Source of the DNA: Streptomyces lunaelactis
GTDB taxonomy: Bacteria > Actinomycetota > Actinomycetes > Streptomycetales > Streptomycetaceae
Assembly: GCF_003054555.1 (NCBI RefSeq)
Contig: NZ_CP026304.1
Location: 2,418,001 to 2,482,000, forward strand
Length of the DNA stretch: 64,000 bases
Direction: 5' to 3'
Part shown: in pieces, positions 17,477-36,578 of the stretch
How the letters are laid out: each line of letters starts with the position of its first letter
Numbering within the stretch: position 1 is the stretch's first letter
The notes under the pieces: generated by a model
What the model was told of the DNA's origin: nothing
The model's database searches: none
What the model saw: only the letters and a program-made list of their open reading frames with translations
Program-made: the position numbers and the translations under genes

Positions 17477-20400
17477 CGCCGGCCAACCGACCCCGGGCGA
17501 AGACGGCGACTGTGCGGGCCGGTACGGTGAAGCTGCCTGAACTCCCCTCATACGCCGCAGACTTGGTGATGAGGTCCCCGCCCGCGAGCTGGACCGGATG
17601 GAGGGCGTACACCTTCCCCGCCAGTCCCGGGACCCGCTGGGTCTGCCGCTCCGGTGTGGCGTTGAAGACCACGACCAGATCGCCGAGGCGCATGGTGATC
17701 ACGCCGGGTGTCTCCTCCTTGCCGGAGAGCGGGAAGGACAGCACGGACTGGACCTCGCCCGCCGAGGCCAGGCTGAAGGCCTGCTCGGTGGTACGGATCG
17801 TCAGCAGGTCGCGATAGGCGGCCGACGCACCGTCGATCTGCGGACAGCCGACGGTGAGCGAGGGCGCCGTCAGCAGTGGTTCGGCGAACGGCCACTTGGT
17901 CTTGTTGTCGGCCTCGGGCGGCAGTCCGCGGCCGAAGCCGTTGCCGTCCCGGCAGTCCCAGTGGATCGCGTTGAACCAGTCGCCGTTGTCGTACGAATTG
18001 CGGTCCAGTGACTTGGACCGGAGCAGGTCCGTCCCCGCCTGGGAGAGCGCGGGCCCCTGGGAGAGCGCGGCGGTCGCCATCGCCAGCACCTGCATACGTG
18101 CCCGGTCGGCCGGAGAGGTGGCCGGGGGCAGCTTGAAGGCGAGGGCGTCGTACAGCGACTCGTTGTCGTGGGCGTCGGCGTAGGCGAGGGCGTCACCGGG
18201 GGCGGCGGCGTACCCGGCAGGGGCGCCGTTGTAGTCGACCTCGGAGCCCTTGACGCTGCGGCCGGAGCTGTCGGTGAAGGAGTACCCGGCGAGATTGCCC
18301 GCCAGGCCCACCTTGATCAGGTCCTGGTAGTGCAGCAGCCGGGCCTTCTGCTCGGCCGGAGTGCCGTTCGCCGGGGCCGGGTTGGGGTCGGTGAACAGGC
18401 CCGATGCGAAGCCCTGCACACCCGGGTCCTCGTCGAAGGGGCCGCCGCCGCGCACCGCGTCACGGGCCCGGTCGGAGAACGTCGCCACCCCCGTCCCCGC
18501 CATGTTCTTCTGGGTGGCCTGGACGAAGCGGGCGTCATCCGCGATCTCCCCGAAGTTCCAGCCCTCCCCATAAAGGATGATCTTCTTCCCGTCGACGCCG
18601 TCGCGGGCGGGCGTCAGCTCGTCGAGGGCGGCGCGCACCGCGAGGATGTTGGCCTTCGGATGGTGGCCCATCAGGTCGAAGCGGAAGCCGTCGACCTTGT
18701 ACTCCTTCGCCCAGGTGACGATCGAGTCGACGACGAGTTTGCCCATCATGGCGTTCTCGGGCGCGGTGTTGGCGCAGCAGGTGGAGGTGGCGACCGTACC
18801 GTCGGCGAGGAGCCGCTGGTAGTAACCGGGCACGATCTTGTCGAGTACGGACTTGTCGGCCTGTCCGCTCGCCACGGTGTGGTTGTAGACGACGTCCATG
18901 ACGGTGCGCAGGCCGGCGCCGTTCAGGGACTGGACCATCTGCCGGAACTCGACCGTGCGCCGCGTTCCCTCGGGGTCGGAGGCGTACGAGCCCTCGGGGA
19001 CGGTGTAGTGCAGCGGGTCGTAGCCCCAGTTGTACGCGTCCTTCGCGGCGGCCTTGGCGATGCACGCCTGCTGCTCGTCGGAGTCGGGGGCGTACACCTT
19101 CAGGTCGCAGTCGGGGACGGCCTGTTCGGACTTCTTCTCGGGGATGGTGCCGATGTCGAAGGCCGGCAGGAGGTGGACGTAGGAGGTGCCGGAGACGGCG
19201 AGCGCGCGCAGGTGCTTCATACCCTGCGAGTCGCGGTCGGCGAAGGCCAGATACTCCCCCGGGTGCTTCGATGTGCTGTCCGCGACGGAGAAGTCACGGA
19301 TGTGCAGCTCCTGGATCTGCGCGTCGCGGAGCGGAACGGCCGCCGGTTTCCTGAGGCCGGACCAGCCCTTGGGGGCCAGCTCCGGGTCGGTGAGGTCGAC
19401 GGCGAGGCTGCGGGCCGAGTCGGTGGTGAGCGCGGTCGAGTACGGGTCGGTGACCTTGTTGGTGACGAGCTTTTGGACGCTGGGCGCCCAGACCGTGACG
19501 GAGTAGCGGTACGGCTTGCCCGCCCAGCTCTTGGGCCCGGTGACGGACCAGACGCCGCTCGCGCCGTCCCGGCGCATCGCGACGGTCCTGCCGTCGAGTT
19601 CGAGGCTGACGGACCGAGCGGTGGGTGCCCAGAGGGAGAGGGTGGGGCGGCCTCGGTCGAAGACCGGGCCGAGCTTCGCCCCGGTCGCGTCGTACAGGTC
19701 GTCCAGGACACCCGAGATCTGTACGCCGGTGGCTGCGAGCAGTGCGCCATTGGCCGCTCGCTGGGTGGCGATCAGCTGGCCGCGCAGGGAGTCCCGTACC
19801 CGGTCCCGGTCGCGCGGGTCGACGGTGAAGGCCGGATAGTCCTTGAGGTGGGGGTACTTGGCTTTCTGGGCGTCGGTCAGGGCGGCGGAGTTCAACCGCA
19901 GCCAGCGGCCCTCGTCGCTCAGCGCGCCGTCGACGACAGAGATCCCGCCGCTCGCCGCGTACACCAGCTGCTGGCTGGTGGCGTCGGTGGCCTTCACCCT
20001 CCAGACGACGGTGTCCCGGTCGATCCACTGGGCCTCGGCCTTGGCGAGGTCGAGCGAGGGCGCGCCGCCGGTCTGCGGCAGCAGATACTTCGGCTGCCCG
20101 GCCAGCAGCCAGACCTCGTTCGTATACGTTGCGAGGTCCAGGGACTGGTCGGTCGGCAGGTCCTTCTGGTCGCCCTTGTGGAGGATGTAGCTGAGCGAGG
20201 TCGCGCCCGCGGCGAGCGGCACCTCGAAGGTCACTCCGTACGCGTCCTGCCTGACCGGCTGGAGCGGCTTGGACCAGTCGGTGGGCGTTGCGGCCCCGGT
20301 CCAGGTGTGCAGACCCCAGCCGTCGTAGTCGCCGTCGGGCCGGTGGTAGTGGAGGACGGCCCTGGTCCTGTCCTGCGGCGGGTAGGCGCCGTCGGGCGCG

Positions 20401-22787
20401 GTGTCCGACTGGCCGTCCTTGCCCTGGGTGATCCAGACCTGGCCGGTGCGGGCGAGGTCGACGGTGCGCTGCGGGCCGTCGGCGGTGCCGTTCTTCTCGA
20501 CGGTGTACGGAAGGCTCGCGGCGCCCTCGGGGAGCTTGACCCAGGCGAACGCGCCGTAGGCGTCCCGCCCGGTGAACACGGCCTGCTCGCCGCCGGTCCT
20601 CAGCTGCCAGCCGTCGTACTCTCCGTCCGGGCGCTGGTAGTGGACGACCGCGTAGTCCCGCTCGACGGCCACCGGCTTCTCGGGGGGCGGGGCCTGCCCG
20701 GCGGTCGTCTCCGCCAGGTCACTCGCCGTACGTCCCGCGCTGTCCACCACAACTGCCTTGTAGCGCACGGGGGTTCCGGCCGCCACCTTGGCGTCGATGT
20801 ACTGGGTGACCTTGTACGGGGCGTGATCGGCGGAACCGAGGGTGCGCCACTTGCCGCTGCCGACCTGGGCTGCGAAGACGACGCGGTTGAGTGCGCCGCC
20901 TTCGGTGTCCGCGGTGATCTCGACGGTGCCGGTGGCCCCGGCGGGCGGGGCGTCGAGGGTGATCGAGGGCTTGGAGGTGGGTGCGCCCAGGGGCTTGGTG
21001 GCCTGAAGCACGAGGGAGGACAGCGCGGGAAGGGTAAGGGTGATCTTCCCGTCGGCGGCCCGCACCGGGCCCGAACCGCCGTACAGCGTACGGAAGTCGG
21101 TGGCGTCCACCGGAATGGTCACGGCCTTGGGCGCGGTGCCGTTGTTGGCGGCGACGACGTACTCCGTGCGCGTCCTGGCGTCTGTGCGGGAGAAGGCGTA
21201 CACCGAGTCCTTGGCGTACCGCTCTCTCTGGATGCCGTCGCGCAGCGCCGGGTGGTCCTTGGTGAGCTTCGACAGCGCGGCGATGGACCGGTAGACGGGA
21301 TGGGTGGGGTCGTACGCGTCGGATGCGTGCGTACGGTCCGTGCCGAGCTGGTCGTCGTCCAGATAGTCGGCGGTCCTGGAGGCGAAGAGGCTCTGGCGGG
21401 CGTCCTTGTCGCCGCCCGCGCCGGTGAAGCCCTGCTCGTCGCCGTAGTAGATGACGGGGTTGCCCCGGGAGAGGAACATCAGCTCGTTTGCGAGCCGGGC
21501 GCGCTGCAGCAGCTCCGCGTCGTCGGCCTTCGGGTTGTCCTGCTTGAGGAACGTGCCGATGCGGCCCATGTCGTGGTTGCCGAGGAAGGTCACCTGCTCA
21601 TAGGCGTTGGCCTTGTCGGTGGTGTAGCGGTAGTCGTCGGCGAAGACCTTGGCGAGGCGGTCGGCGGGTGCGCCCTGCGATGCGTAGGCGCGGGCCGCGT
21701 CCTGGAAGGGGAAGTCGAGGGTCGCGTCGAGGCGGCCTCGGGTGACATACGGCGAGGTGATCGCCGTGTCCGCCGCGAAGATCTCGCCGAACATGAAGAA
21801 GTCGTCGCGGCCGCGCTCGGCGGCGTACGCGTCGAGCGCGGTGGCCCACTGGGTCCAGAAGTCCAGGTCGACGTGTTTGACGGTGTCGATACGGAAGCCG
21901 TCGATGTCGAAGTCGCGGACCCACTTCTCGTAGATCTTCTCCATGCCGTCGACGACCTCGGGACGCTCGGTCCACAGGTCGTCGAGCCCGGAGAAGTCGC
22001 CGTACTCGGAGCTCTCGCCGGCGAAGGTCGAGTCGCCGCGGTTGTGGTACATCGTGGGGTCGTTGAGCCAGGCGGGGACCTTCTGGCCGGTGGCCTTGGG
22101 GGTGTACGGGAAGGAGTCGGCGTCGACCTTGCCGATCCCCGCCCGGTCGTCGAAGGGGCGGCCGCTGCTGTCCAGGTATGGATAGGCGCCCTTGGGGCGG
22201 TAGCCGTACTTCTGCTCGGCGTAGTCGACGGTGTCGGCGGTGTGGTTGGTGATGACGTCGAAGAAGACCTTCATGCCCTTGCCGTGGGCCTTGTCGATCA
22301 GCTTCTCGAGGTCGGCGTTGGTGCCGAAGTGGGGGTCGACCTGGGTGAAGTCGGTGATCCAGTAGCCGTGGTAGCCGGCCGACGCGTCCTTGCCGGTGCC
22401 CTGTACGGGCCGGTTCCTGAAGATGGGCGCGAGCCAGATGGCGGTGGTGCCGAGCCCCTTGATGTAGTCGAGCCTGCCCGTCAGGCCCTTGAGGTCGCCG
22501 CCCTGGTAGAAGCCCTTGTCGGCGGGGTCGTACCCGGTCTCCAGCCGCGAACCGGTGAGCCCGCCGCGGTCGTTGGAGCGCTCGCCGTTGGCGAACCGGT
22601 CGGGCAGGACGAAGTAGAACTGCTCGCGGGTCAGATCGTGTCTGGCCGGCTCGGCGGCCAGTCTCCCGTCCGACGGCGGAGCGGGCGGCGGAGCGGCCGA
22701 CGCCGCGGGTACGGCCGGTATCAGCGCCGCGCACAGGGCGGCCGCGATGGCCGCGGCGCGGGTGCGGCGGCGGGGGGTACGGGGCAT
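17469..22787 (-). CDS. Secreted bifunctional alpha-amylase/pullulanase
   Basis: 1772 residues. A Sec signal peptide (1-31, ending ASAA) is followed by a complete GH13 alpha-amylase unit (about 50-600) with DGFRIDTVKHVD (nucleophile Asp near 300), FGEIF (Glu near 333) and LGNHDMGR (Asp near 404). Next come an Ig-like linker, two CBM41-type starch-binding modules, each starting with VHYQRPDGEYDGW-like sequence (about 712 and 809), a CBM48-like module (about 1050-1140) and a pullulanase GH13 unit with DVVYNHT, DGFRFDLMGHH (near 1371), LYGEGWNFGE (near 1407) and ADAHDNES (near 1541). It cuts alpha-1,4 and alpha-1,6 bonds outside the cell. ATG 22787 has GGAGAG 8 bp upstream; ATG 22805 is less likely. 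Downstream of aml. Confidence 0.93.
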   Translation of the reverse strand: MPRTPRRRTRAAAIAAALCAALIPAVPAASAAPPPAPPSDGRLAAEPARHDLTREQFYFVLPDRFANGERSNDRGGLTGSRLETGYDPADKGFYQGGDLKGLTGRLDYIKGLGTTAIWLAPIFRNRPVQGTGKDASAGYHGYWITDFTQVDPHFGTNADLEKLIDKAHGKGMKVFFDVITNHTADTVDYAEQKYGYRPKGAYPYLDSSGRPFDDRAGIGKVDADSFPYTPKATGQKVPAWLNDPTMYHNRGDSTFAGESSEYGDFSGLDDLWTERPEVVDGMEKIYEKWVRDFDIDGFRIDTVKHVDLDFWTQWATALDAYAAERGRDDFFMFGEIFAADTAITSPYVTRGRLDATLDFPFQDAARAYASQGAPADRLAKVFADDYRYTTDKANAYEQVTFLGNHDMGRIGTFLKQDNPKADDAELLQRARLANELMFLSRGNPVIYYGDEQGFTGAGGDKDARQSLFASRTADYLDDDQLGTDRTHASDAYDPTHPVYRSIAALSKLTKDHPALRDGIQRERYAKDSVYAFSRTDARTRTEYVVAANNGTAPKAVTIPVDATDFRTLYGGSGPVRAADGKITLTLPALSSLVLQATKPLGAPTSKPSITLDAPPAGATGTVEITADTEGGALNRVVFAAQVGSGKWRTLGSADHAPYKVTQYIDAKVAAGTPVRYKAVVVDSAGRTASDLAETTAGQAPPPEKPVAVERDYAVVHYQRPDGEYDGWQLRTGGEQAVFTGRDAYGAFAWVKLPEGAASLPYTVEKNGTADGPQRTVDLARTGQVWITQGKDGQSDTAPDGAYPPQDRTRAVLHYHRPDGDYDGWGLHTWTGAATPTDWSKPLQPVRQDAYGVTFEVPLAAGATSLSYILHKGDQKDLPTDQSLDLATYTNEVWLLAGQPKYLLPQTGGAPSLDLAKAEAQWIDRDTVVWRVKATDATSQQLVYAASGGISVVDGALSDEGRWLRLNSAALTDAQKAKYPHLKDYPAFTVDPRDRDRVRDSLRGQLIATQRAANGALLAATGVQISGVLDDLYDATGAKLGPVFDRGRPTLSLWAPTARSVSLELDGRTVAMRRDGASGVWSVTGPKSWAGKPYRYSVTVWAPSVQKLVTNKVTDPYSTALTTDSARSLAVDLTDPELAPKGWSGLRKPAAVPLRDAQIQELHIRDFSVADSTSKHPGEYLAFADRDSQGMKHLRALAVSGTSYVHLLPAFDIGTIPEKKSEQAVPDCDLKVYAPDSDEQQACIAKAAAKDAYNWGYDPLHYTVPEGSYASDPEGTRRTVEFRQMVQSLNGAGLRTVMDVVYNHTVASGQADKSVLDKIVPGYYQRLLADGTVATSTCCANTAPENAMMGKLVVDSIVTWAKEYKVDGFRFDLMGHHPKANILAVRAALDELTPARDGVDGKKIILYGEGWNFGEIADDARFVQATQKNMAGTGVATFSDRARDAVRGGGPFDEDPGVQGFASGLFTDPNPAPANGTPAEQKARLLHYQDLIKVGLAGNLAGYSFTDSSGRSVKGSEVDYNGAPAGYAAAPGDALAYADAHDNESLYDALAFKLPPATSPADRARMQVLAMATAALSQGPALSQAGTDLLRSKSLDRNSYDNGDWFNAIHWDCRDGNGFGRGLPPEADNKTKWPFAEPLLTAPSLTVGCPQIDGASAAYRDLLTIRTTEQAFSLASAGEVQSVLSFPLSGKEETPGVITMRLGDLVVVFNATPERQTQRVPGLAGKVYALHPVQLAGGDLITKSAAYEGSSGSFTVPARTVAVFARGRLAGVN

Positions 22788-22833
22788 GGACGTGCTCTCC
22801 TTCATCGACGTTTCCTACGGCCGTCGGCCGGGT

Positions 22834-22873
22834 CCTCAATCGCCGGACGGGCTCGAGTTGCCGGCGATTGAGG
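22834..22873 (-). terminator. Hairpin between amylase and pullulanase genes
   Basis: CCTCAATCGCCGG (22834-22846) and CCGGCGATTGAGG (22861-22873) form a perfect 13-bp stem with a 14-nt loop. It belongs to the dispersed gene-end repeat family. It lies 30 bp after the amylase stop and 47 bp before the pullulanase start, so it should reduce read-through between the two genes. Confidence 0.75.
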
Positions 22874-22902
22874 CGCGGGGGGCCTGGGGCGGAGCCCCGG
22901 AC

Positions 22903-24288
22903 TCAGCCGCAGGCGCGCGCAGCTGCGTGCAGCGCCACCGCCGTGTTGGGGCCCAGCGTCGCCGTGAACTGACCGGAGCCGTTCACCGTCACGCCCCTCC
23001 CGTTCTGCACATCGCAGTAGTCGCCCGCCGGCAGCGACGTCTGGAACGTGCGCGTCAGCGAACCGGCCTCGTGGTTGATCGCCACGTACGCCTTGCTGCC
23101 GCGCCCGAAGGCGATCTGGTCGCCCCCGTTGTCCCACCAGTTGGTGACCGACTCGCCGCGGGCGGTGTTGCGGAACGCGACCATCGACTTGATCTCCGGC
23201 CACGCGTGCTGGCACTTCCAGCCGTCCTGCCAGCACGCGTTGACCGTCCCGCCGCCAGGCGGGCCCGCGTCCCGGTCGGACCACTCGTAGCCCGAGTGCA
23301 CATCGGGCGCCCCGTACGGCCAGGCCAGCATGAACACGTTCGCCAGCGTGTAGTTCGCGCCGTCCTTGTAGCTCAGGGTGTCGCCGCCCCGCTCGGTGTC
23401 GTGGTTGTCCACGAAGACCGCGGACCTGCCGGACTCCATGTACCCCCAGCCCTCGCCGTAGTTCTTCAGATACGCGAGGTTCTCGTTGTTGAAGACGCGC
23501 TTGAGGTCGCGGGCGTACCGGAACTCCTGCACATCCCCGGTCCCGAGGTACTCGCTGGGCGACACCGCCTCGCCCGCGCCGTAGATCGCCTCCTGCTTCC
23601 AGTACGCGCCCGGATTGCTCAGCCTGGACTTGATGTTGGCGAGGTCGGCGGCGGGCATGTGCTTGGCGGCGTCGATACGGAAGCCGTCGACGCCGAGCGT
23701 GAGCAGATCGTTCAGGTAGGCGGCGATGCGTCCGCGGACGTAGTCCTCACCGGTGTCCAGGTCGGCGAGCTGGACAAGCTCACAGTTCTGGACGTTGGCG
23801 CGGTCCTGGTAGTTGGTGATGGTCGACCGGCAGTCGTCCATGTCGGCGCCGGAGTAGATGCCGGGGTAGGTGTACTTCTCGTAACTCGAGCCGCCCGTGC
23901 CGGTACCGGACGCGGAAGCCATGTGGTTGATGACGCTGTCGACGACGACCTTGACGCCCGCCGCGTGGCAGGTGTTCACCATGCTGCTGAACGCGGCGCG
24001 GTCGCCGAGACGGCCGGCGATCTTGTAACTGACGGGCTGGTACGAGGTCCACCACTGGCCGCCCTGGACGTGCTCCTGGGGCGGGGAGACCTGAACATAG
24101 CCGTAACCGGCCGGGCCCAGGCTGCTGGTGCACGCCGTGGCGACCGAGGCGAACTTCCACTCGAAAAGGACGGCCGTGACGTCCTTGTCCCCCGGCGGGG
24201 CCGCCTGCGCGGGGCCCACCGGTGCAACCACACTCACCGCGGCGCCCGCCACAAGGGCGAGCGCCGCGGCCAGAGATCTGCCGGCCAT
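22903..24288 (-). CDS. aml: Secreted alpha-amylase, GH13
   Basis: 461 residues. A Sec signal (1-29, ending AQA) precedes a compact Streptomyces-type alpha-amylase: [19 protein letters not shown] start, [10 protein letters not shown] (region I), [11 protein letters not shown] (nucleophile Asp near 204), YGAGEAV (Glu near 241), [11 protein letters not shown] (Asp near 298), and a C-terminal beta domain with a Cys pair near the end. It has no starch-binding CBM20, so it is the short form. It hydrolyses internal alpha-1,4 bonds of starch outside the cell. GGAGG lies 4 bp before ATG 24288. Its promoter carries the MalR-type element at 24486-24512, so it is probably repressed without maltodextrins. 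The symbol aml is the usual Streptomyces name. Confidence 0.93.
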
Positions 24289-24370: not shown

Positions 24371-24512
24371 TCTTGCTGCAAGGCAGCAGAAAGTTATTGC
24401 GGTCGCGACCGTACGAGCCTCCCGGTCCGCGGTCAACCCCCTGGACACACTCTCGTCGCACCGCGGAAATCTTGCTGTTTCCCAACTGCAAGACCTTTCG
24501 CAAGTTTTGCAG
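24371..24512 (-). promoter_or_regulatory. aml promoter region with MalR-type operator
   Basis: The 200-bp region upstream of aml contains CTGCAAGACCTTTCGCAAG with TTTTGCAG (24486-24512), which shares CTGCAA, CTTTCGCAAG and TTGCAG in the same order with the mal promoter site at 33722-33750. A further TTGCTGCAAGGCAGCAG stretch lies at 24372-24388. GCAAG/TTGCAG repeats upstream of Streptomyces amylase genes are known binding sites of the LacI-type regulator MalR/Reg1. Exact -35/-10 hexamers cannot be fixed by eye. The rest of the gap, 24513-24756, holds GC-rich inverted stretches (24541-24600) and no gene. Confidence 0.75.
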
Positions 24513-27313: not shown

Positions 27314-28375
27314 CTACCGCCGCGCCTGCGCGGTGGTGCCCCGGACCACGAGCTCCGGCTGGAACACATACTCCGTGCTCTGCACCGGACTTCCCTGCAG
27401 TTCCTCGAGCAACGCACCCACCGCCGCCGCGGCCATCGCCTTCACCGGCTGGCGGACCGTCGTCAGCGGCGGATCCGTGAACGCCACCAGCTGCGAGTCG
27501 TCGAACCCGACCACCGAGAGGTCGTACGGCACATCGAGTCCGCGTTCCCGGGCCGCCCGGACCACGCCGAGGGCCATCATGTCGCTGCCGCAGACGATGG
27601 CGGTGCACTCCTTGTCCAGCAGCGCACCGGCCGCCGCGTGGCCGCCCTCGACACTGAACAGTGAGCGCTGGACCAGCCGTTCGGCCGCGGCTTCGGTATA
27701 GCCCAGGATGGAGGCGAGACCGTCCAGGAAGCCCTCGGTCTTGCGGTGCGCCGGCACATAGCGGCCGGGACCGATCGCCAGTCCGATCCGCTCGTGCCCC
27801 AGTTCGGCCAGATGGTGTACGGCCATACGCATCGCCGCCCGGTCGTCGCAGGAGACGCACGGCGCACTGATCTGCTCGCTGTACCCGTTGATGAGGACGA
27901 ACGGAACTCCCCGGTCCACGAGTTCGGCGTACCGCGTGTGATCGGCCGAGGTGTCGGAGTGCTTGCCCGACAGGAACACGATGCCGTTGACACCGCTCTC
28001 CTGGAGCTGCTCGACGAGCTCGTCCTCGGTCGCGCCGCCCGGCAGCTGGGTGCAGAGCACCGGGGTGTAGCCGTGCCCTGCCAGCACCTGCTCGACGGCC
28101 TGGGCGAACGCCGGGAAGATCGGGTTGGTGAGCTCGGGGGTCAGCAGCCCGATGAGGCCCGCGCTGCGCTGCCGCAGGCGTACGGGCCTCTCGTATCCGA
28201 GCACGTCGAGCGCCGCGAGCACCCGCTGGCGGGTGCCGCTCGCAACGCCCGGTTTGCCGTTCATCACCCGGCTGGCGGTCGCCTCGCTGACCGACGCCTG
28301 AGCGGCGATGTCCGCGAGCCGCGGGGCGGCGACGCCGGTCCGGACGGCGCCGCCCCGCGACGGGGGAATCGTCAC
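27314..28375 (-). CDS. LacI-family regulator, second MalR-like paralogue
   Basis: 353 residues. LacI helix-turn-helix LADIAAQASVSEATASRVMN (about residues 25-44), then the periplasmic-binding-like effector domain (RSAGLIGLLTPELTNPIFPA onward) and the conserved SVVGFDDSQLVAFTDPPLTT. It is clearly similar throughout to MalR at 35547-36578, for example both have LAALDVLGYERPVRLR and DPPLTT, so the two are paralogues. The GTG at 28375 overlaps the TGA of the alpha-glucosidase gene (GTGTGA), which fixes the start and shows coupling. It is the last gene of the malEFG-agl operon. It probably senses a maltodextrin or related sugar. Confidence 0.9.
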   Translation of the reverse strand: MTIPPSRGGAVRTGVAAPRLADIAAQASVSEATASRVMNGKPGVASGTRQRVLAALDVLGYERPVRLRQRSAGLIGLLTPELTNPIFPAFAQAVEQVLAGHGYTPVLCTQLPGGATEDELVEQLQESGVNGIVFLSGKHSDTSADHTRYAELVDRGVPFVLINGYSEQISAPCVSCDDRAAMRMAVHHLAELGHERIGLAIGPGRYVPAHRKTEGFLDGLASILGYTEAAAERLVQRSLFSVEGGHAAAGALLDKECTAIVCGSDMMALGVVRAARERGLDVPYDLSVVGFDDSQLVAFTDPPLTTVRQPVKAMAAAAVGALLEELQGSPVQSTEYVFQPELVVRGTTAQARR

Positions 28376-30042
28376 ACCGTCCACCACACAGCGGTGTCCG
28401 CGGGCAGTTCGGCCTCGCCCTCGGCCGTGCGGACAACGCTGTTGGCCAGCAGTACGCGGCCGGGTGCCGGTATCCGTACGGCCGTGCCCGTCGTGTTGAC
28501 GGTGCAGACGAAGCCGCCGTCCCGGCGGAAGGCGAGCACACCCTCGGGCGCGTCCAGCCATTCGACGGCGTCACCCGCCCCCAGTGCGGCGTGCTCACGG
28601 CGCGCCGCGAGGGCGCTGCGGTACAGCTCCAGAGTCGAGTCCGGGTCACCGGTCTGTGCCTCGACGCTGAGCCCGGCCCAGCTGTCCGGCTGGGGCAGCC
28701 AGCTGCCGCCCGCGCCGAAGCCGTACGACGAACCCTCCGCGGTCCACGGGATTGGCACCCGGCAGCCGTCACGGAAGCCGTCCTGGCCCTCCGTGCGCCC
28801 GAAGGCCGGGTCCTGCCGGACCTCGTCGGGCAGGTCGGTGACGTCGGGGAGGCCGAGCTCCTCGCCCTGGTAGAGATAGGCGGATCCGGGCAGCGCCAGC
28901 ATCAGCAGGGTGGCGGCGCGGGCCCGGCGCAGGCCGAGTTCACGGTCGCCGGCCTCACGGATCTGGGTGCCCGCCGGCGGGCCCGCGAAGCGGGTGGCGT
29001 GGCGGGTCACATCGTGGTTGGAGAGCACCCAGGTCGCGGGGGCGCCGACGGGCCGCATGGCGTCCAGCGACACGTCGATGACCCGACGGAGCTCGGCCGC
29101 GTCCCAATGGGTGCCCAGGTACTGAAAGTTGAAGGCCTGGTGCAGCTCGTCGGGGCGCACATAGTTGGCGGTGCGCTCCACGGTGGGCGTCCACGCCTCG
29201 GCCACGGCGATCCGGTCGCCCGGGTACTCGTCGAGGATCTTGCGCCAGGCGCGGTAGATCTCGTGGACGCCGTCCTGGTCGAAGAACGGCATGACATCGC
29301 TGCCCAGCAGTTTCAGCTGTTCGCTGCCGCCGATGTCGGGCAGGCCGGCCGCCTTGACCAGGCCGTGGGCGACGTCGATCCGGAAACCGTCGACGCCCAT
29401 GTCGAGCCAGAAGCGCAGGATCGAGCGGAACTCGTCGGCGACGGCCGGGTGTTCCCAGTTGAAGTCGGGCTGCTCGGGCGCGAAGAGATGCAGATACCAG
29501 TCGCCGGGGGTGCCGTCGGGGTTCTCGGTACGGGTCCAGGCCGAGCCGCCGAAGATGGACTCCCAGTCGTTGGGCGGGAGTTCACCGCGGTCCCCCTTGC
29601 CGGGACGGAAGTGGTAGCGGTCGCGCAGCGCGGATCCCGGGCCCTCCTCCAGCGCGCGCTTGAACCACTCGTGGGCGTCGGAGGAGTGGTTGGGCACCAG
29701 GTCGACGATGATGCGCAGCCCGAGGTCGTGCGCGTCCCTGATCAGCGCGTCGGCGTCCAGCAGCGTGCCGAACATCGGGTCGATCGCGCGGTAGTCGGCG
29801 ACGTCGTAGCCGGCGTCGGCCTGCGGGGAGGCGTAGAAGGGGCTCAGCCACACCGCGTCGACGCCGAGTTCCCTGAGGTACGGCAGTCGGCTGCGGATGC
29901 CCGGAAGGTCCCCCATGCCGTCGCCGTTCCCGTCGGCGAAGCTGCGGGGGTACACCTGGTAGATGACGGCGTCTCTCCACCAGTCCGCGCGGGCCGCGGT
30001 CCTGTCGGCGGTGTGATGGGCGTCAGCCAGGTACTGGGTCAT
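28372..30042 (-). CDS. Alpha-glucosidase, GH13 (cytoplasmic)
   Basis: 556 residues with no signal peptide. Starts around WWRDAVIYQVYPRSFADGNG, then IIVDLVPNHSS (region I), DGFRIDVAHGLV (nucleophile Asp near 222), IAVAEAW (Glu near 283) and LSNHDVTRH (Asp near 344). This is the oligo-1,6/alpha-1,4-glucosidase type of GH13. It would split imported maltose and maltodextrins to glucose. GAGGGA lies 7 bp before ATG 30042. It is the fourth gene of the operon, 88 bp after malG with a hairpin in the gap. A paralogue lies at 33857-35521. Confidence 0.92.
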   Translation of the reverse strand: MTQYLADAHHTADRTAARADWWRDAVIYQVYPRSFADGNGDGMGDLPGIRSRLPYLRELGVDAVWLSPFYASPQADAGYDVADYRAIDPMFGTLLDADALIRDAHDLGLRIIVDLVPNHSSDAHEWFKRALEEGPGSALRDRYHFRPGKGDRGELPPNDWESIFGGSAWTRTENPDGTPGDWYLHLFAPEQPDFNWEHPAVADEFRSILRFWLDMGVDGFRIDVAHGLVKAAGLPDIGGSEQLKLLGSDVMPFFDQDGVHEIYRAWRKILDEYPGDRIAVAEAWTPTVERTANYVRPDELHQAFNFQYLGTHWDAAELRRVIDVSLDAMRPVGAPATWVLSNHDVTRHATRFAGPPAGTQIREAGDRELGLRRARAATLLMLALPGSAYLYQGEELGLPDVTDLPDEVRQDPAFGRTEGQDGFRDGCRVPIPWTAEGSSYGFGAGGSWLPQPDSWAGLSVEAQTGDPDSTLELYRSALAARREHAALGAGDAVEWLDAPEGVLAFRRDGGFVCTVNTTGTAVRIPAPGRVLLANSVVRTAEGEAELPADTAVWWTV

Positions 30043-30087
30043 TCTCGATCCCTCTGAGGCTCGGTGCGGCGATGCGGGACAAGACCG

Positions 30088-30116
30088 GGGCACCCGGCCG
30101 GTCGGGCCGGGTGCCC
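30088..30116 (-). terminator. Intercistronic hairpin malG-agl
   Basis: GGGCACCCGGCC (30088-30099), 5-nt loop, GGCCGGGTGCCC (30105-30116): perfect 12-bp stem in the gap between malG and the alpha-glucosidase gene. Without a T-run it may be a partial terminator or an mRNA-processing/stability element that sets lower expression downstream. Confidence 0.75.
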
Positions 30117-30130
30117 GGGTTTCGTACGGG

Positions 30131-31057
30131 TCAGGATTTGGCGGCGCCGGCGGTGAGGCCGGTGACCAGGTGGCGCTGGACCAGATAGAAGAACAGCGCG
30201 GCGGGGATGGCGATGAGCACGGAGGTCGCGGCCATCAGGTCCCACTGGGTGTCGTGCTGGCTGATGAAGCTGGTCAGGCCGACGGCGAGGGTGTACTTCT
30301 CCTCGCTGAGCATGAAGACCGACGCGTAGGCGACCTCGGCCCAGGCGGTGAGGAAGGTGTAGAACGCGGCCACCGCCAGGCCCGGCCGGGCGAGGGGCAG
30401 GATCAGCCGGTAGAAGGTGCCGAAGGGGCTGAGGCCGTCGATCCGGCCGGCTTCGTCGATCTCCTGCGGGATGGTGTCGAAGTACCCCTTGAGCAGCCAG
30501 GCGCAGTACGGGATCGCCGTGGTGCAGTAGACCAGGATCAGCGCCCAGTAGGTGTCGAGCAGACCCATGTCGGCCAGGATGTTGTAGAGCGGCACCATGA
30601 GGATGGCGACCGGGAACATCTGGGTGACCAGGAAGGTCCACATCAGCTGCCGGTGCCCGGGGAAGCGCATCCGGGAGACCGCGTAGCCGGAGCTGGCGGC
30701 GATGAAGACGCCGAGCAGGCACGTACCGAGCGCGACGATCAGCGAGTTGACGAACCACTGCAGGAACTCGGTGTCGTTCAGGACCGTCGTGTAGTTCTCG
30801 AAGCTGATCTTGTCGGCGATGTCGCCCGGGTGAAGGTAGTCGGTCTTGTCCGGACCGAGCGAGATCCAGGCGATCCAGCCGATCGGGAAGGCCGCGACGA
30901 AACTCGCGGTGATCAGCGCGCCGTGGATCAGCACGGATGCGGAACGGGGGCGCTCTCCGCGCTTCAACTGCCGCTTGCCCGCCGGTCGCTTGCGGGGCGG
31001 GACGGCGGCCGGTTCGGCGGCCGCTCCCGCGACCGGGAGATCTGCTGTGGTGCTCAT
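30131..31057 (-). CDS. malG: Maltose/maltodextrin ABC transporter permease MalG
   Basis: 308 residues. Lys/Arg/Pro-rich cytoplasmic N-terminus, then six membrane helices beginning at about residue 38. The EAA loop of binding-protein-dependent permeases is EIDEAGRIDGLSPFGTFYRL (about residues 190-210), which contacts the ATPase. The C-terminus FFYLVQRHLVTGLTAGAAKS is typical of MalG-type CUT1 permeases. GAGAGGG lies upstream of ATG 31057; ATG 31084 is an alternative. It works with MalF and MalE; no ATPase gene is present, so a shared MsiK-type ATPase must supply energy. Confidence 0.92.
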   Translation of the reverse strand: MSTTADLPVAGAAAEPAAVPPRKRPAGKRQLKRGERPRSASVLIHGALITASFVAAFPIGWIAWISLGPDKTDYLHPGDIADKISFENYTTVLNDTEFLQWFVNSLIVALGTCLLGVFIAASSGYAVSRMRFPGHRQLMWTFLVTQMFPVAILMVPLYNILADMGLLDTYWALILVYCTTAIPYCAWLLKGYFDTIPQEIDEAGRIDGLSPFGTFYRLILPLARPGLAVAAFYTFLTAWAEVAYASVFMLSEEKYTLAVGLTSFISQHDTQWDLMAATSVLIAIPAALFFYLVQRHLVTGLTAGAAKS

Positions 31058-31118
31058 GGGGTTGGCTGCCCTCTCTGTCGTCATGGCTGGTGCTGTTGCT
31101 CGACGGCCTCGGCGGCCG

Positions 31119-32129
31119 TCAGACGGCCTTCTCGTTGCGGGCCAGCCAGCGCCGGTAGAAGGAGGCGAAGACGATGAGCATCGACAGGATGATGACGCCG
31201 TAAGCGGCGGAGCCGGCGTAGTCGCGCGGGTCCTGTCCGAAGCCCAGGCGGTAGGCCCAGGTGACGAGGATCTGCGCCTCGGGCGCGCCGGTCGCGCCGA
31301 ACAGCAGGAAGATCACGACGAACTGGTTGAAGGTCCAGATGGTCCCGAGCAGGACGACCGTGCTGCTGACCGAGCGCAGGCCGGGGAGCGTCACATGGCG
31401 GAAGCGCTGCCAGGGGGTTGCCCCGTCCACCTCGGCGGCTTCGTACTGCTCCGAGGGGATCGACTGCAGACCGCCGAGCAGCGAGACCATCATGAAGGGG
31501 ACGCCGACCCAGGTGTTGACCGTGATGGCGGCGATCCGCTGCCAGAACGGCTCACTGAGCCAGGGCGGGGTGGGCAGATGGGCCCATTCCAGAGCCATGT
31601 TGAGGATGCCGCCGTCGTCGGCGAGTATCAGCCGCCAGGCGAAGACGGTGACGAAGGTGGGCACCGCCCACGGCAGGATCAGGACCATCCGGTAGAAGGT
31701 GCGGCCGCGGAGCTTGCGGTTGAGCAGCAGGGCCAGGCTCATGCCTATGCCGTAGTGCAGGGCCACACAGACGACGGTCCAGACGATGGTCCAGGTGAAG
31801 TGGGGCCAGAACTGGTGGTCGCCCCCCGAGAGGATCTCCGTGTAGTTGTCGAAGCCCACCCACGAGAAGCTGTCGGGGATCTCGTTGACGCCGATCGTCT
31901 TGCCGACGTTGCTGCTGTTGGCATCGGTCAGCGACAGATAGATGCCGCGGGCCAGGGGATAGAGCACCAGCGCGCCGATGACCGCGACCACGGGGGCCAC
32001 CATCGCCCAGGCGTACCAATTGCGGTTGTACGACTGCCTGAAACGGCTGATCGGCCCGGGACGCGGCCCGGGACGCGGCCCGGCGCCACGCTGGGTCTTA
32101 TCGCTTCCGCCCTCGACGGCGACGGTCAT
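31119..32129 (-). CDS. malF: Maltose/maltodextrin ABC transporter permease MalF
   Basis: 336 residues. A basic Pro/Arg-rich N-terminus precedes six helices (first at about residues 41-62). The EAA loop is QYEAAEVDGATPWQRFRHVT (about 227-246). It forms the channel heterodimer with MalG. ATG 32129 (MTVAVEGGSDK) has AAGG at good spacing; a GTG at 32138 adds three residues but sits directly on that Shine-Dalgarno. Second gene of the operon, 92 bp after malE, with a strong hairpin in the gap. Confidence 0.92.
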   Translation of the reverse strand: MTVAVEGGSDKTQRGAGPRPGPRPGPISRFRQSYNRNWYAWAMVAPVVAVIGALVLYPLARGIYLSLTDANSSNVGKTIGVNEIPDSFSWVGFDNYTEILSGGDHQFWPHFTWTIVWTVVCVALHYGIGMSLALLLNRKLRGRTFYRMVLILPWAVPTFVTVFAWRLILADDGGILNMALEWAHLPTPPWLSEPFWQRIAAITVNTWVGVPFMMVSLLGGLQSIPSEQYEAAEVDGATPWQRFRHVTLPGLRSVSSTVVLLGTIWTFNQFVVIFLLFGATGAPEAQILVTWAYRLGFGQDPRDYAGSAAYGVIILSMLIVFASFYRRWLARNEKAV

Positions 32130-32172
32130 CTTCGACACCTTTACGACAGATTCTCAGGAGGGTTCACGACGC

Positions 32173-32211
32173 CGTGGTGGTACGGCCCGGGTTCTGGGCC
32201 GTACCACCACG
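32173..32211 (-). terminator. Perfect 16-bp intercistronic hairpin malE-malF
   Basis: CGTGGTGGTACGGCCC (32173-32188), 7-nt loop, GGGCCGTACCACCACG (32196-32211). It starts about 11 bp after the malE stop and ends 44 bp before malF. No T-run follows. Such a structure typically lets malE mRNA accumulate above malF and malG, matching the need for excess binding protein. Confidence 0.9.
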
Positions 32212-32221
32212 GGTGGCAGCT

Positions 32222-33493
32222 TTAGGAGAAGTCCTTGAGGAGCTTCTTGTAGGACTCGGCGGTGGTGTCCAGGCCCTTCTGGGTGGTCACCTTGCCCTGC
32301 AGGATCGCCGTGAGGTTGGTGCCGAGGTCGGCGAAGAGCGAGCTGTACTCGGGCAGCTCCGGACGGGGCCGGGCGGAGCCGGCGAGGACCGCCTGGAACT
32401 CGGTGATGCCCGGGGTGGCCTTGACCTCGGCGGTGTAGGCGGAGGTGCGGGTCGGCAGCGTGCCGTTCTTCAGCGCGATCTTGGCCTGGGTCTCACCCGA
32501 GGTCATGAAGCCGACGAACTTCTGGGCCGCGGCCTGGTGCGCCTTGTCGGAGCCGGCGTAGACGGAGAGGTTGTGGCCGCCGGTCGGGGCGCCGGCCTTG
32601 CCGGTGGCGCCGGCCGGGACGCTGGAGATGCCGAGGTTGGCCTTGTCCTTGAAGGCGGCGCCCTTGTAGATGTTCGTCAGCTCCCACGGGCCCTGGACGA
32701 TCATCGCGACCTTGCCGGTGGTGAACGCGTCCTGCATGTGGGCGTAGGAGTCGGCGGTCACATCGAGCTTGGCGACACCCGGCGAGGCGAGCAGAGCCTT
32801 GGTCGCGTCCACGGCCTTGACGGCCTCGGGCGAGTTCACCGTGATCTTCTTCGCGCCGGCGTCGACCATGTCGGTGCCCTCACCGAAGAGGAACGGGAGC
32901 TCGAAGTAGGCGTCGGCGCGGAGCCCGAAGCCGTCGACCCCGGCCTTCTCCTTGACCGCCTTGGAGACGGCCTTCACCTCGTCCCAGGTGGCCGGCGCCT
33001 TGTCGAAGCCGGCCTTCTTCAGGATTTCCTTGTTCCACATCAGGCCGAGGGAGTCGGTGACGAAGGGGGCACCGTAGGTCTTGCCCTCGTACTGGGCCTG
33101 CTTCAGGAGCGAGGGAGTGATGTCCCCGGTGTTCTTGAGCGCGTCCGTGCCGTCGAGCGGGGCCAGGAACTGCGACTTGGCCCAGGAGGCGGTCCAGCCG
33201 ACCTCGGCGCGGATGATGTCGGGAGCACCCTTGCTGCCGGCCGCGGTCTGGAACTTGTTCTGCGCCTGGTCGAAGGGGACGTTGACGTACTCGACCTTGA
33301 TGTCCTTGTTCGCCTTTTCGAACTCGGCGATCATCGCCTTGTACGTCGGCGCCTCGTTCGTCGCGTTCGACGTGTCCCACCAGGTCAGAGTGACCGGGCC
33401 GGCGGCCTTGTCGCCGCTGTCGTCCCCGCCGCACGCCGTCGCTGCCAGTGCCAGTGCCGCTACCAGCGCGGTGGCCGCTATGCCACGCCGCAT
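32222..33493 (-). CDS. malE: Maltose/maltodextrin-binding lipoprotein MalE
   Basis: 423 residues. Lipoprotein signal with lipobox LAATAC (Cys21) and an acidic Gly/Asp stretch after it. Then the type I solute-binding fold for CUT1 sugar transporters: VTLTWWDTSNATNEAPTY, KAVKEKAGVDGFGLRAD, ALLASPGVAKLDVTADSYAH, VGFMTSGETQAKIA. It captures maltose or maltodextrins outside the membrane and hands them to MalF-MalG. AAGGAG lies 6 bp before ATG 33493. First gene of malEFG-agl-lacI, divergent from the second alpha-glucosidase-malR pair. Confidence 0.93.
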   Translation of the reverse strand: MRRGIAATALVAALALAATACGGDDSGDKAAGPVTLTWWDTSNATNEAPTYKAMIAEFEKANKDIKVEYVNVPFDQAQNKFQTAAGSKGAPDIIRAEVGWTASWAKSQFLAPLDGTDALKNTGDITPSLLKQAQYEGKTYGAPFVTDSLGLMWNKEILKKAGFDKAPATWDEVKAVSKAVKEKAGVDGFGLRADAYFELPFLFGEGTDMVDAGAKKITVNSPEAVKAVDATKALLASPGVAKLDVTADSYAHMQDAFTTGKVAMIVQGPWELTNIYKGAAFKDKANLGISSVPAGATGKAGAPTGGHNLSVYAGSDKAHQAAAQKFVGFMTSGETQAKIALKNGTLPTRTSAYTAEVKATPGITEFQAVLAGSARPRPELPEYSSLFADLGTNLTAILQGKVTTQKGLDTTAESYKKLLKDFS

Positions 33494-33608
33494 GTGAACT
33501 CCTTAGAGATGCCCGAGATGGCGGAGGCGACCACGCCCCCTGCCGACCGCTCCCTCGCGGCGCCGGGTTCGGCAGGAACGTAACAAGGATGAAAGAGAGC
33601 GGAAAGAC

Positions 33609-33750
33609 CTTGCGGCAATTTTCTGCAAGAGCGGGGGATCGTTACATCCACGTGTCCTGAGAGTTGCCATTGCATCGCTTGACGGCGGCCACTTCGGCCG
33701 CTCCAGGCGCTTCACAGAGTGCTGCAAACGTCTTTCGCAAGGTCTTGCAG
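33609..33750. promoter_or_regulatory. Divergent mal promoter region with two MalR-type sites
   Basis: The 363-bp gap 33494-33856 contains CTTGCGGCAATTTTCTGCAA ending in G (33609-33629), nearer malE, and an element CTGCAA...CTTTCGCAAG...TTGCAG (33722-33750), nearer the rightward alpha-glucosidase gene. The second matches the aml site at 24486-24512. For the rightward promoter TTTCGC (33733-33738), 16 bp, GATATT (33755-33760) is a possible -35/-10, so bound MalR would cover it. A small GGCGGCCACTTCGGCCGC inverted repeat lies between the sites. The rest of the gap is leader sequence. Confidence 0.75.
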
Positions 33751-33856
33751 GGCTGATATTTTGGTCCCCGAAGCACCGTCACCCCGGGCCCGCACCCACG
33801 TTGACCTCGTTAGTTGTACGTCCCCCCCGCCCCCGCACCGTACGAGAGGGACCCAT

Positions 33857-35521
33857 ATGACACACGAACTCACTTCCGCGGTCGGTCTCCCCGGCCCCAC
33901 CGCAGCCGAGGCGCCGCGCCCTGCAAGCTCTTCCATCAAGAGCAGCGACTGGTGGCGCGATGCCGTCATCTACCAGGTGTACGTGCGTTCCTTCGCCGAC
34001 AGCGACGGCGACGGCGTAGGAGATCTGCGCGGAGCCACCCGGCGCCTGCCCCATCTCGCCCAGCTCGGCATCGACGCCGTATGGCTCACGCCCTTCTACG
34101 CCTCCCCGCAGGCCGACGGCGGCTACGACGTGGCCGACTACCGGGCCGTGGACCCGCTCTTCGGGGATCTCGCCGACGCCGACGATCTCGTACGCAGCGC
34201 CCACCAGCTGGGCCTGAAAGTGATCGTGGACGTCGTCCCGAACCACACATCGGACCGGCACCCGTGGTTCTCGGCCGCGCTCGCGGACCGGGACGGGGGT
34301 GCGGCCCGCGAGCGCTATCACTTCCGCCCCGGCAAGGGCGCGGCCGGCGAGCTGCCGCCGAACGACTGGGAGTCGGTCTTCGGCGGTCCCGCCTGGACCC
34401 GCACGCCGGACGGGGCCTGGTACCTCCACCTCTTCGCACCCGAGCAGCCCGACCTCAACTGGGAGAACGCGGAGGTGCACGAGGAGTTCGACTCGGTTCT
34501 GCGCTTCTGGCTGGACCTCGGCGTCGACGGCTTCCGCATCGATGTCGCGCACGGCATGGTCAAGGCCGCCGGACTGCCGGACATCGGCCACAAGGAACAG
34601 GCCAGGCTGATCGGTTCCCAGACGCTGCCCTTCTTCGACCAGGACGGGGTGCACGAGATCCACCGCTCCTGGCGCAGGCTCCTCGACTCCTACCCCGGGG
34701 AGCGGATCGGTGTCGCCGAGGCCTGGGCGCCCAGCCCGGACCGGCTCGCGCTGTACGTACGTCCCGACGAACTGCACCAGGCCTTCAACTTCCAGTTCCT
34801 GCGGTGCCCGTGGGACCCGGAGGCGATGCGCAACGTGATCGACGAGTCACTCGCCGCCACCGCCTCGGTGGGGGCGCCCACCACCTGGGTGCTCTCCAAC
34901 CACGACGTGGTCCGCCACCCCACCCGCTACGGCGGCGGGGAGCGGGGGCTGCGCCGCGCCCGCGCGGCCGCGCTGCTGATGCTCGCACTGCCCGGCTCGA
35001 CGTACATCTACCAGGGCGAGGAGCTCGGACTGCCCGAGGTCACCGATCTGCCGAGCGAGGTGCGCCAGGACCCCGCCTTCTTCCGCGCGGCGGGGCAGGA
35101 CGGTTTCCGTGACGGCTGCCGGGTGCCGATCCCGTGGTCCGGCCACAAGGCACCGTTCGGCTTCGGCCCCGGATCCAGCTGGCTGCCGCAGCCGGACAGC
35201 TGGCGGGAGCTCTCCGTCGAGGCCCAGACCGGCGACCCCTGCTCGACGCTGGAGCTCTACCGCTCCGCGCTGACGCTGCGCCGTGAACTGCCGGGCGGCC
35301 CGATGCGATGGCTGCCGGCTCCGGACGGAGTGCTCGCCCTGTCCCGTCCGGGCATCGTCTGCACGCTCAACACCACGGCGTCGGAGATCGAACTGCCGCT
35401 GCCGGGACGGCCGCTGCTCTCCTCCGTACCGCTGGAGCCGACGGGTGACACAGCACCTCTGGAGCCGACGGGTGACACAGCCCGTATTCCGGCTGATTCC
35501 TGTGCGTGGTGGGCAATCTGA
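33857..35521 (+). CDS. Alpha-glucosidase, GH13, second copy
   Basis: 554 residues, no signal peptide. Same architecture as the enzyme at 28372-30042: WWRDAVIYQVYVRSFADSDG, VIVDVVPNHTSD, DGFRIDVAHGMV (nucleophile Asp229), GVAEAW (Glu288), LSNHDVVRH (Asp350). It would hydrolyse imported maltodextrins in the cytoplasm. ATG 33857 has GAGAGGG upstream. Near the C-terminus LEPTGDTA occurs twice in tandem from a 27-bp duplication. It is 25 bp upstream of malR on the same strand, so the two are probably one transcript divergent from malEFG. Confidence 0.92.
   Translation: MTHELTSAVGLPGPTAAEAPRPASSSIKSSDWWRDAVIYQVYVRSFADSDGDGVGDLRGATRRLPHLAQLGIDAVWLTPFYASPQADGGYDVADYRAVDPLFGDLADADDLVRSAHQLGLKVIVDVVPNHTSDRHPWFSAALADRDGGAARERYHFRPGKGAAGELPPNDWESVFGGPAWTRTPDGAWYLHLFAPEQPDLNWENAEVHEEFDSVLRFWLDLGVDGFRIDVAHGMVKAAGLPDIGHKEQARLIGSQTLPFFDQDGVHEIHRSWRRLLDSYPGERIGVAEAWAPSPDRLALYVRPDELHQAFNFQFLRCPWDPEAMRNVIDESLAATASVGAPTTWVLSNHDVVRHPTRYGGGERGLRRARAAALLMLALPGSTYIYQGEELGLPEVTDLPSEVRQDPAFFRAAGQDGFRDGCRVPIPWSGHKAPFGFGPGSSWLPQPDSWRELSVEAQTGDPCSTLELYRSALTLRRELPGGPMRWLPAPDGVLALSRPGIVCTLNTTASEIELPLPGRPLLSSVPLEPTGDTAPLEPTGDTARIPADSCAWWAI
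35432..35481 (+). repeat. In-frame 27-bp tandem duplication in the alpha-glucosidase gene
   Basis: CTGGAGCCGACGGGTGACAC plus AGC occurs at 35432-35454 and 35459-35481 (period 27 bp). It encodes LEPTGDTAP followed by LEPTGDTAR in the C-terminal beta domain. Since the unit is nine codons, the frame is kept. Confidence 0.9.
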
Positions 35522-35546
35522 CGTGCGACCGGTACAGTCCAATCCC

Positions 35547-36578
35547 GTGACCGCACGGCTTGCCGACATCGCAGCCCAGGCGGGGGTCAGCGAAGCCACA
35601 GTCAGCCGCGTGCTCAACGGCAAGCCCGGTGTGGCCGCGGCAACCCGCGAATCCGTACTCGCGGCGCTCGACGTGCTCGGCTACGAGCGTCCGGTGCGCC
35701 TGCGCCACCGCAGCGCCGGCCTGGTCGGTCTCATAACACCGGAACTCGACAACCCGATCTTCCCGGCACTCGCCCAGGTCATCGGCCAGGCCCTGACGCG
35801 GCAGGGCTACACCCCGGTCCTCGCCACCCAGACCCCGGGCGGCTCCACCGAGGACGAGCTCACCGAAATGCTGGTGGACCGCGGGGTCTCCGGAATCATC
35901 TTCGTCTCGGGCCTGCACGCGGACACCACCGCCGATATGCAGCGCTACGACCAGCTGCGCGGCCAAGGTGTCCCCTATGTCCTGCTGGGCGGCTTCTCGT
36001 CCAAGGTGAAGGCCCCCTTCGTCTCGCCCGACGACCGGGCCGCGATGCACCTCGCGGTGACCCATCTCGTCTCGCTCGGCCACACCCGGATCGGTCTGGC
36101 GGTCGGCCCGAAGCGCTTCGTCCCCGTGCTGCGGAAGATCGAGGGCTTCCAGCAGGCCATGGAGAGCCAACTCGGCCTCGCCCCCGAGGAGTCCGAGGAC
36201 CTCATCCAGCACTCCCTCTACACGCTCGAAGGCGGTCAGGCCGCGGCAAGCGCCCTGATCGGGGTCGGGTGCACCGCCGTGGTCTGCGCGAGCGACATGA
36301 TGGCGCTCGGCGCGATCCGGGCCGCCCGCGGGCTGGGCCTGAAAGTGCCGCGTGACGTGTCCGTGGTGGGCTTCGACGACTCCCCGCTCATAGCGTTCAC
36401 GGATCCGCCGCTGACCACCATCCGGCAGCCCGTGCAGGCCATGGGGCAGGCCGCCGTCCGTACCCTCCTGGAGGAGATCGGCGGCACTCCTGCCCCGCAC
36501 AGTGAGTTCGTCTTCATGCCTGAGCTGGTGGTTCGCGGCTCTACGGCGTCGGGACCCGGAGCCGTGGGGCGTTCTTGA
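35547..36578 (+). CDS. malR: Maltose regulator MalR, LacI family
   Basis: 343 residues. N-terminal LacI HTH: ARLADIAAQAGVSEATVSRV then LNGKPGVAAATRESVLAALD. The effector-binding domain follows, ending FDDSPLIAFTDPPLTTIRQP and FVFMPELVVRG. It corresponds to Streptomyces MalR (Reg1), the repressor of malE and amylase genes relieved by maltodextrins. GTG 35547 starts MTARLADI; a GTG at 35523 adds eight residues. It is co-oriented with the alpha-glucosidase gene and probably binds the sites at 33609-33750 and 24486-24512. Of the two LacI paralogues here, its divergent position from malE fits the classical malR. Confidence 0.9.
   Translation: MTARLADIAAQAGVSEATVSRVLNGKPGVAAATRESVLAALDVLGYERPVRLRHRSAGLVGLITPELDNPIFPALAQVIGQALTRQGYTPVLATQTPGGSTEDELTEMLVDRGVSGIIFVSGLHADTTADMQRYDQLRGQGVPYVLLGGFSSKVKAPFVSPDDRAAMHLAVTHLVSLGHTRIGLAVGPKRFVPVLRKIEGFQQAMESQLGLAPEESEDLIQHSLYTLEGGQAAASALIGVGCTAVVCASDMMALGAIRAARGLGLKVPRDVSVVGFDDSPLIAFTDPPLTTIRQPVQAMGQAAVRTLLEEIGGTPAPHSEFVFMPELVVRGSTASGPGAVGRS

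Follow-up and report, generated by a model that had tools for sequence, protein, structure and literature searches.

The maltose-type (mal) locus at 27314-36578 in a stretch of 64,000 nucleotides of Streptomyces lunaelactis DNA (contig NZ_CP026304.1, positions 2,418,001-2,482,000; hereafter the window, with coordinates counted from its first letter) carries two genes for MalR-type repressors of the LacI family, each beside a gene for an alpha-glucosidase. By their sequences the two repressor genes, malR1 and lacI2, are members of two old clades, alpha and beta, and the two-LacI layout is common in the genus, not rare. MalR1 and LacI2 probably share their control sites, as judged from their recognition helices and from the DNA upstream of malE. 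We give an even chance to the explanation that we favour, namely that MalR1 and LacI2 are an isorepressor pair on shared operators, with the second repressor produced by the operon under its control.

An earlier note on this DNA had proposed seven genes, with malE-malF-malG-agl1-lacI2 on the minus strand facing agl2-malR1 on the plus strand, and the sequence bears out both the genes and their order. lacI2 (27314-28375, minus strand, GTG start) ends the operon on the strand of malE and is thus not divergent from it; malR1 (35547-36578, plus strand, GTG start) is divergent from malE, with agl2 in between. Both products carry the LacI helix-turn-helix (PF00356) and the periplasmic-binding-protein-like effector domain (PF13377) with scores above the cut-off. 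The products of agl1 (28372-30042, minus strand, ATG at 30042) and agl2 (33857-35521, plus strand, ATG at 33857) are GH13 alpha-glucosidases (PF00128) that fall in the T and D clades, respectively, of the agl tree. Gene starts, those of these four genes included, were refined by reading the DNA sequence. The paralogy suggested for the two enzyme-repressor pairs also holds. MalR1 and LacI2 are identical at 218 of 331 residues (66%) and Agl1 and Agl2 at 367 of 560 (66%); in a search of the 8.57 Mb genome lacI2 was the nearest relative of malR1 (65%; next LacI 54%) and agl1 that of agl2 (70%; next 55-56%). A gap of 25 bases separates agl2 from malR1 on the same strand. At the operon end the GTGA coupling pointed out previously is real: the GTG of lacI2 (28375-28373) shares bases with the TGA of agl1 (28374-28372) in a four-base overlap, and an xTGA overlap of this kind is kept in 60 of 74 two-LacI loci.

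For comparison, MalF served as the query against 150 genomes of the genus, an even sample of a larger set. Matches were obtained in 145, and of the resulting 147 loci with malF (window excluded) 136 were counted for gene order, 11 with short flanks being left out; three genomes (G016, G079 and G099) contribute two loci each, and a further set, the named loci, consists of the best 80 of 109 found. The classical single-malR order, with malR divergent from malEFG-agl, accounts for 59 loci, malR divergent from malEFG-agl-lacI for 38 and malEFG-agl-lacI without a divergent regulator for seven. The exact order of the window, with two agl/lacI pairs, occurs in 27 of the 136, fewer than the presence of both pairs in most streptomycetes that the earlier note had set as part of its refuting condition; the same order minus agl1 is found in two and other orders in three. 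LacI genes flank malEFG on both sides in 68 of the 136, which contradicts the suggestion that the second regulator departs from the usual layout. Our searches of a library of open-licence papers listed none that deals with a second MalR-type LacI closing the mal operon of Streptomyces.

The separation into two clades was evident in a tree of 265 LacI proteins calculated with FastTree. LacI matches no longer than 250 residues and agl matches no longer than 400 were excluded from the trees, among them the operon-end LacI of locus L209, which gave a short match only and is possibly broken or affected by a sequencing fault. All 144 divergent Streptomycetaceae copies are in the alpha clade (n = 163), the rest of which consists of 17 copies from loci without a divergent LacI and two from loci without malF. 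Of the beta clade (n = 93), 75 members are operon-end copies from loci that also have a divergent LacI and 18 come from loci without one. A few of the loci scored as lacking a divergent LacI are truncated by the end of a contig. A second, more careful tree, with 58 proteins, supports alpha at 99/95 and beta at 99/92, and places 16 operon-end copies of two-regulator loci in a group at 100/100. Every LacI of the three Kitasatospora-like loci, and both copies in each of the seven Streptacidiphilus loci, belongs to the beta clade. The agl tree displays a parallel split between operon-end and divergent copies, with exceptions. An alpha LacI accompanies an agl2-type enzyme at the operon end in 11 loci (L150, L151, L153, L156, L169, L017, L020-L023 and L028) and is paired with an agl1-type enzyme in six (L016, L024, L026, L187, L191 and L196).

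Two simple histories were considered and not adopted. Duplication within Streptomyces is at odds with the free tree, which joins the Streptomyces beta proteins to those of Kitasatospora and Streptacidiphilus, although the in-genus alternative was not rejected (p-value of the approximately unbiased test, p-AU, 0.0616). That two pairs are ancestral to the genus was not demonstrated: on a glnE tree of 112 loci, rooted on a nine-locus clade of our choice, lacI2 is present at the root and the divergent agl2, which needs at least nine changes, is absent. Since the pairs occur in varied positions, and also in Nocardioides, each enzyme-repressor pair looks like a travelling unit. Duplication of a regulator together with a gene that it regulates has a described precedent (PMC4052901).

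The operator upstream of malE is common to all of these regulator arrangements. In the window it is predicted at 33609-33629 on the minus strand (CTTGCAGAAAATTGCCGCAAG), the sole exact match to CTTGCA-N10-GCAAG in the genome. It contains, at 33623-33629 and with an inverted partner, the CTTGCAG core described for the MalR site upstream of malE in S. lividans (PMC5526262). Further operator-like elements lie upstream of agl2-malR1 (33722-33750, plus strand, CTGCAA..CGCAAG..CTTGCAG) and, by sequence pattern and with no strand assigned, upstream of an alpha-amylase-like gene (24486-24512); the sites that the earlier note had singled out for binding measurements thus do hold such elements. The composite CTGCAA-N4..12-CGCAAG matches twice in the window compared with 0.03 matches expected. 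Across the sampled loci, CTTGCA-N8..13-GCAAG with at most one mismatch is found upstream of malE in 73 of 75 two-clade loci, 84 of 86 alpha-only loci (L209 being counted here because its operon-end LacI is excluded from the trees), all 11 beta-only loci and three of five loci with neither clade in the tree, and in 18 of 885 mononucleotide-shuffled controls (five for each locus). Among the 168 matches in the first three groups 148 have a spacing of 10, and a few of the best matches sit elsewhere than at the malE-proximal site. At bases 7-10 the operator has GAAA in nearly all of the aligned two-regulator (75) and beta-only (10) loci and mostly CTTT in the 68 loci whose only regulator is a divergent one, with none at the operon end.

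Looser patterns were less informative. The malE-type pattern with two mismatches is at chance level in the window (nine matches, 10.9 expected), CTTGCAG alone is near chance (seven, 4.5 expected) and a longer operator pattern of ours gave no match in a genome-wide operator count. A genome-wide regulon was sought with CTTGCA-N10-GCAAG and one mismatch and was rejected; it gave 35 hits where the reversed pattern gave 135, so the one-mismatch malE pattern does not define a regulon.

The protein side of this interaction is similarly uniform. In the recognition helix, SEATVSRVLN, eight of the ten residues are conserved at 99-100% in all five groups of LacI proteins compared. The remaining two vary in the beta clade, with V19 at 87% and L23 at 95% in operon-end proteins and L23 at 89% in those without a divergent partner. 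We suggest that MalR1 and LacI2 would bind the same CTTGCA...GCAAG class of operator upstream of both malE and agl2-malR1, probably also that of the amylase-like gene, and that binding of an alpha-glucoside would release both. lacI2 would be transcribed with the operon that it represses and be translationally coupled to agl1. Because LacI2 is most likely made from this operon, induction would also raise the level of repressor, and the resulting delayed negative feedback might damp induction and switch the operon off fast once the sugar is exhausted. Of the two ideas on sensing put forward in the earlier note, negative feedback thereby gains support from the shared operator and from lacI2 being part of the operon; split sensing is less easily reconciled with the data.

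Several observations weigh against the isorepressor explanation. The recognition helix of the LacI2 of the window itself carries V19A and L23M. Since each clade supplies the only kind of LacI in some loci, both tolerate the operator; it does not follow that both bind it in the genome of the window. A lacI2 promoter may lie inside agl1, and co-transcription is our inference. On the side of the effector, a glycine at position 148 in the pocket of MalR1 argues for some difference in effector response between the two repressors. Finally, 10 of the 22 positions (among 341) that are specific to alpha or beta fall at residues 80-120 (post hoc p 5e-5), and two of them match LacI 84 and 97, which are tabulated as dimer-interface positions (Table 2 of PMC3877293). 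This cluster, seen post hoc and a lead only, suggests that the two repressors may differ in dimerization or allostery.

The glycine leads to the strongest alternative, that the repressors share operators and sense different alpha-glucosides, one perhaps maltose and the other a maltodextrin that is longer or branched, and that full induction would need both sugars or either one. We regard such split sensing as less likely than not. In a comparison of effector-pocket positions, which the earlier note had proposed, ten polar residues (N69, D126, S160, D162, R196, K197, S249, D250, D277 and S279) are invariant in all five groups, and the MalR1 of the window differs by Gly148. The pocket positions were placed with a LacI sequence as ruler, by which MalR1 positions 148 and 294 presumably correspond to D149 and Q291 of LacI. 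These two positions (written 148/294) are N/Q in 82, D/K in 77 and G/Q in four of the 163 alpha proteins; in the 93 beta proteins they are N/Q in 88 and D/K in five, and the nine members of the tree outside both clades are all N/Q. The coupling is strict, since N/K or D/Q is never seen in the 252 alpha and beta proteins without Gly148, and the FastTree tree needs five changes at position 148 and four at 294. Gly148, one of three changes private to the MalR1 proteins of the window group, is confined to the window and loci L001, L002 and L003. With one pocket residue of MalR1 changed in this lineage, split sensing may operate there. It is also favoured by six other two-regulator loci in which an alpha D/K protein stands with a beta N/Q protein, by five of the seven Streptacidiphilus loci, in which one of the two regulators is N/Q and the other D/K, and by the partner enzymes. 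In the window the loop after the catalytic NHD motif is 25 residues long in Agl1 and 13 in Agl2; of 141 operon-end copies, 113 have a loop of 25-26 residues, and it is at most 18 residues long in 35 of 35 divergent copies, which include a few from Micromonosporaceae.

Nevertheless, alpha is N/Q in 66 of 76 two-regulator loci, as are all 75 operon-end beta proteins, and the other 28 operon-end enzymes have a short loop of 9-15 residues. Nor did a pocket-focused divergence between alpha and beta withstand scrutiny: three of the 38 listed pocket positions are clade-specific, which is no enrichment over the 22 of 341 overall (p 0.45), and one of the three, LacI 222, is tabulated as a dimer-interface residue (Table 2 of PMC3877293).

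The transporter of the window has had a history of its own. Its genes, all on the minus strand, encode a solute-binding protein (malE, 32222-33493, PF13416) and two maltose-type ATP-binding cassette permeases (malF, 31119-32138, and malG, 30131-31084, both PF00528). Since all NCBIfam scores are below the curated cut-offs, we named MalE, MalF and MalG from the top match, which is the model of that name in each case, and from gene order. MalEFG (30131-33493) clusters with its counterparts in Kitasatospora and in single-malR genomes, and joining the window group to 12 genomes with the other type of transporter, some of which share the MalR1 of the window at about 91%, is rejected for malEFG (p-AU 1.8e-5). 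The neighbouring glnE places the window among the genomes of the other type, and for this gene a clade with the single-malR genomes is rejected (p-AU 0.016); malR1 tends towards the same placement (p-AU 0.058) and agl1 is undecided (p-AU 0.60, the constrained tree being even slightly better). The conflict with glnE indicates that at least malEFG has been exchanged between conserved flanks. A more speculative proposal for this lineage, and one that we consider doubtful, is a two-input switch in which LacI2 keeps the canonical Asn148/Gln294, the Gly148 MalR1 would answer another or bulkier alpha-glucoside or would not answer maltose, and the transporter has been exchanged; across the family, 148/294 would then set the specificity and would have switched between its two states on several occasions in both clades.

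A second alternative is that LacI2 is a local regulator of some other target with its own operator and that MalR1 alone controls the transporter. The AmlR/AmlE pair of Actinoplanes is a local pair of this kind as described (PMC6828939). A beta-type agl-lacI pair lies beyond malG in two Nocardioides loci (L042 from 12831 and L065 from 12890) that also have their own divergent LacI, so it can travel as a unit. However, the same operator is present in the Kitasatospora-like and Streptacidiphilus loci where beta is the sole kind, and the overlap between the agl1 stop and the lacI2 start leaves no intergenic promoter, although an internal one is possible. We judge this alternative to be unlikely.

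It is very unlikely that LacI2 is a redundant relic left by an old duplication and is being lost: LacI2 does evolve faster (median identity 78%, compared with 88% for MalR1) and lacI2 is absent from 66 of the 112 loci of the glnE tree, with at least seven changes from a root state in which it is present, but its ratio of nonsynonymous to synonymous substitution rates (dN/dS) of 0.25, the conserved DNA-reading residues and the conserved overlap with agl1 speak against this, and recent decay is not favoured. The identities and dN/dS values come from 30 two-pair loci with all rows present (435 pairs), dN/dS being calculated with our own Nei-Gojobori script. Median dN/dS is 0.13 for malR1, 0.25 for lacI2, 0.29 for agl2 and 0.27 for agl1; MalR1 is the more conserved repressor in 99.5% of pairs, and both repressor genes are under purifying selection.

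Other candidate genes for the use of alpha-glucans, named from their translations, were noted in the same genome. Beyond the locus, at 17469-24288 on the minus strand, are encoded a pullulanase-like protein of 1778 residues that reads as two amylase-type halves and, at 22903-24288 on the same strand, the alpha-amylase-like gene. A third cluster at 6.408-6.415 Mb (L100, 8624-14835) comprises a LacI, a binding protein, two permeases and an alpha-glucosidase, and a CTTGCA-like site with one mismatch (6408581-6408601) is directly upstream of its LacI gene.

Among the regulators of starch use in actinobacteria, MalR of S. coelicolor and S. lividans is well known. We take the mal layout of S. coelicolor, which is not among the named loci, to comprise one LacI and one alpha-glucosidase in the order <R>E>F>G>A, and compared with it the window adds a second LacI and a second alpha-glucosidase. 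Since a second MalR-type repressor, absent from the model layout, is present in half of the sampled loci of the genus, results obtained with the model may not be transferable. Together with the travelling pairs and the coupled pocket residues, genomes that naturally have one regulator or two offer a direct route to why two repressors would share one operator. Loci of the single-malR order differ from the window further, with D148/K294 in 62 of 68 MalR proteins and an operator spacer that is mostly CTTT in place of GAAA. malR1 itself resembles the S. coelicolor and S. lividans gene as described, in being divergent from malE and in having a CTTGCAG core with an inverted partner at the malE promoter (PMC5526262).

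A close parallel to MalR1 and LacI2 is provided by GalR and GalS of Escherichia coli, two paralogous LacI-family repressors that are thought to use one operator and for which sharing of effectors is reported (PMC3877293). For MalR1 and LacI2 the corresponding observation is of shared polar pocket residues alongside a Gly148 found only in the MalR1 proteins of the window group, and unlike GalR and GalS, which are encoded at separate loci, they flank one transporter, each beside its own enzyme gene. AmlR and AmlE of Actinoplanes sp. SE50/110, a LacI-type regulator and a GH13 maltase in one operon, recall agl1-lacI2 by description only, having their own 12-nucleotide palindrome and another gene neighbourhood (PMC6828939). 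In that account the Streptomycetaceae homologue of the maltase is said to stand without a regulator gene; contrary to this, a LacI gene directly follows the operon-end alpha-glucosidase gene in 73 of our 136 loci. Likewise by description only, AraQ and MalR1 of Bifidobacterium are two functionally similar LacI-type regulators that act jointly, on other genes and with another regulon than the pair in the window (PMC6882875).

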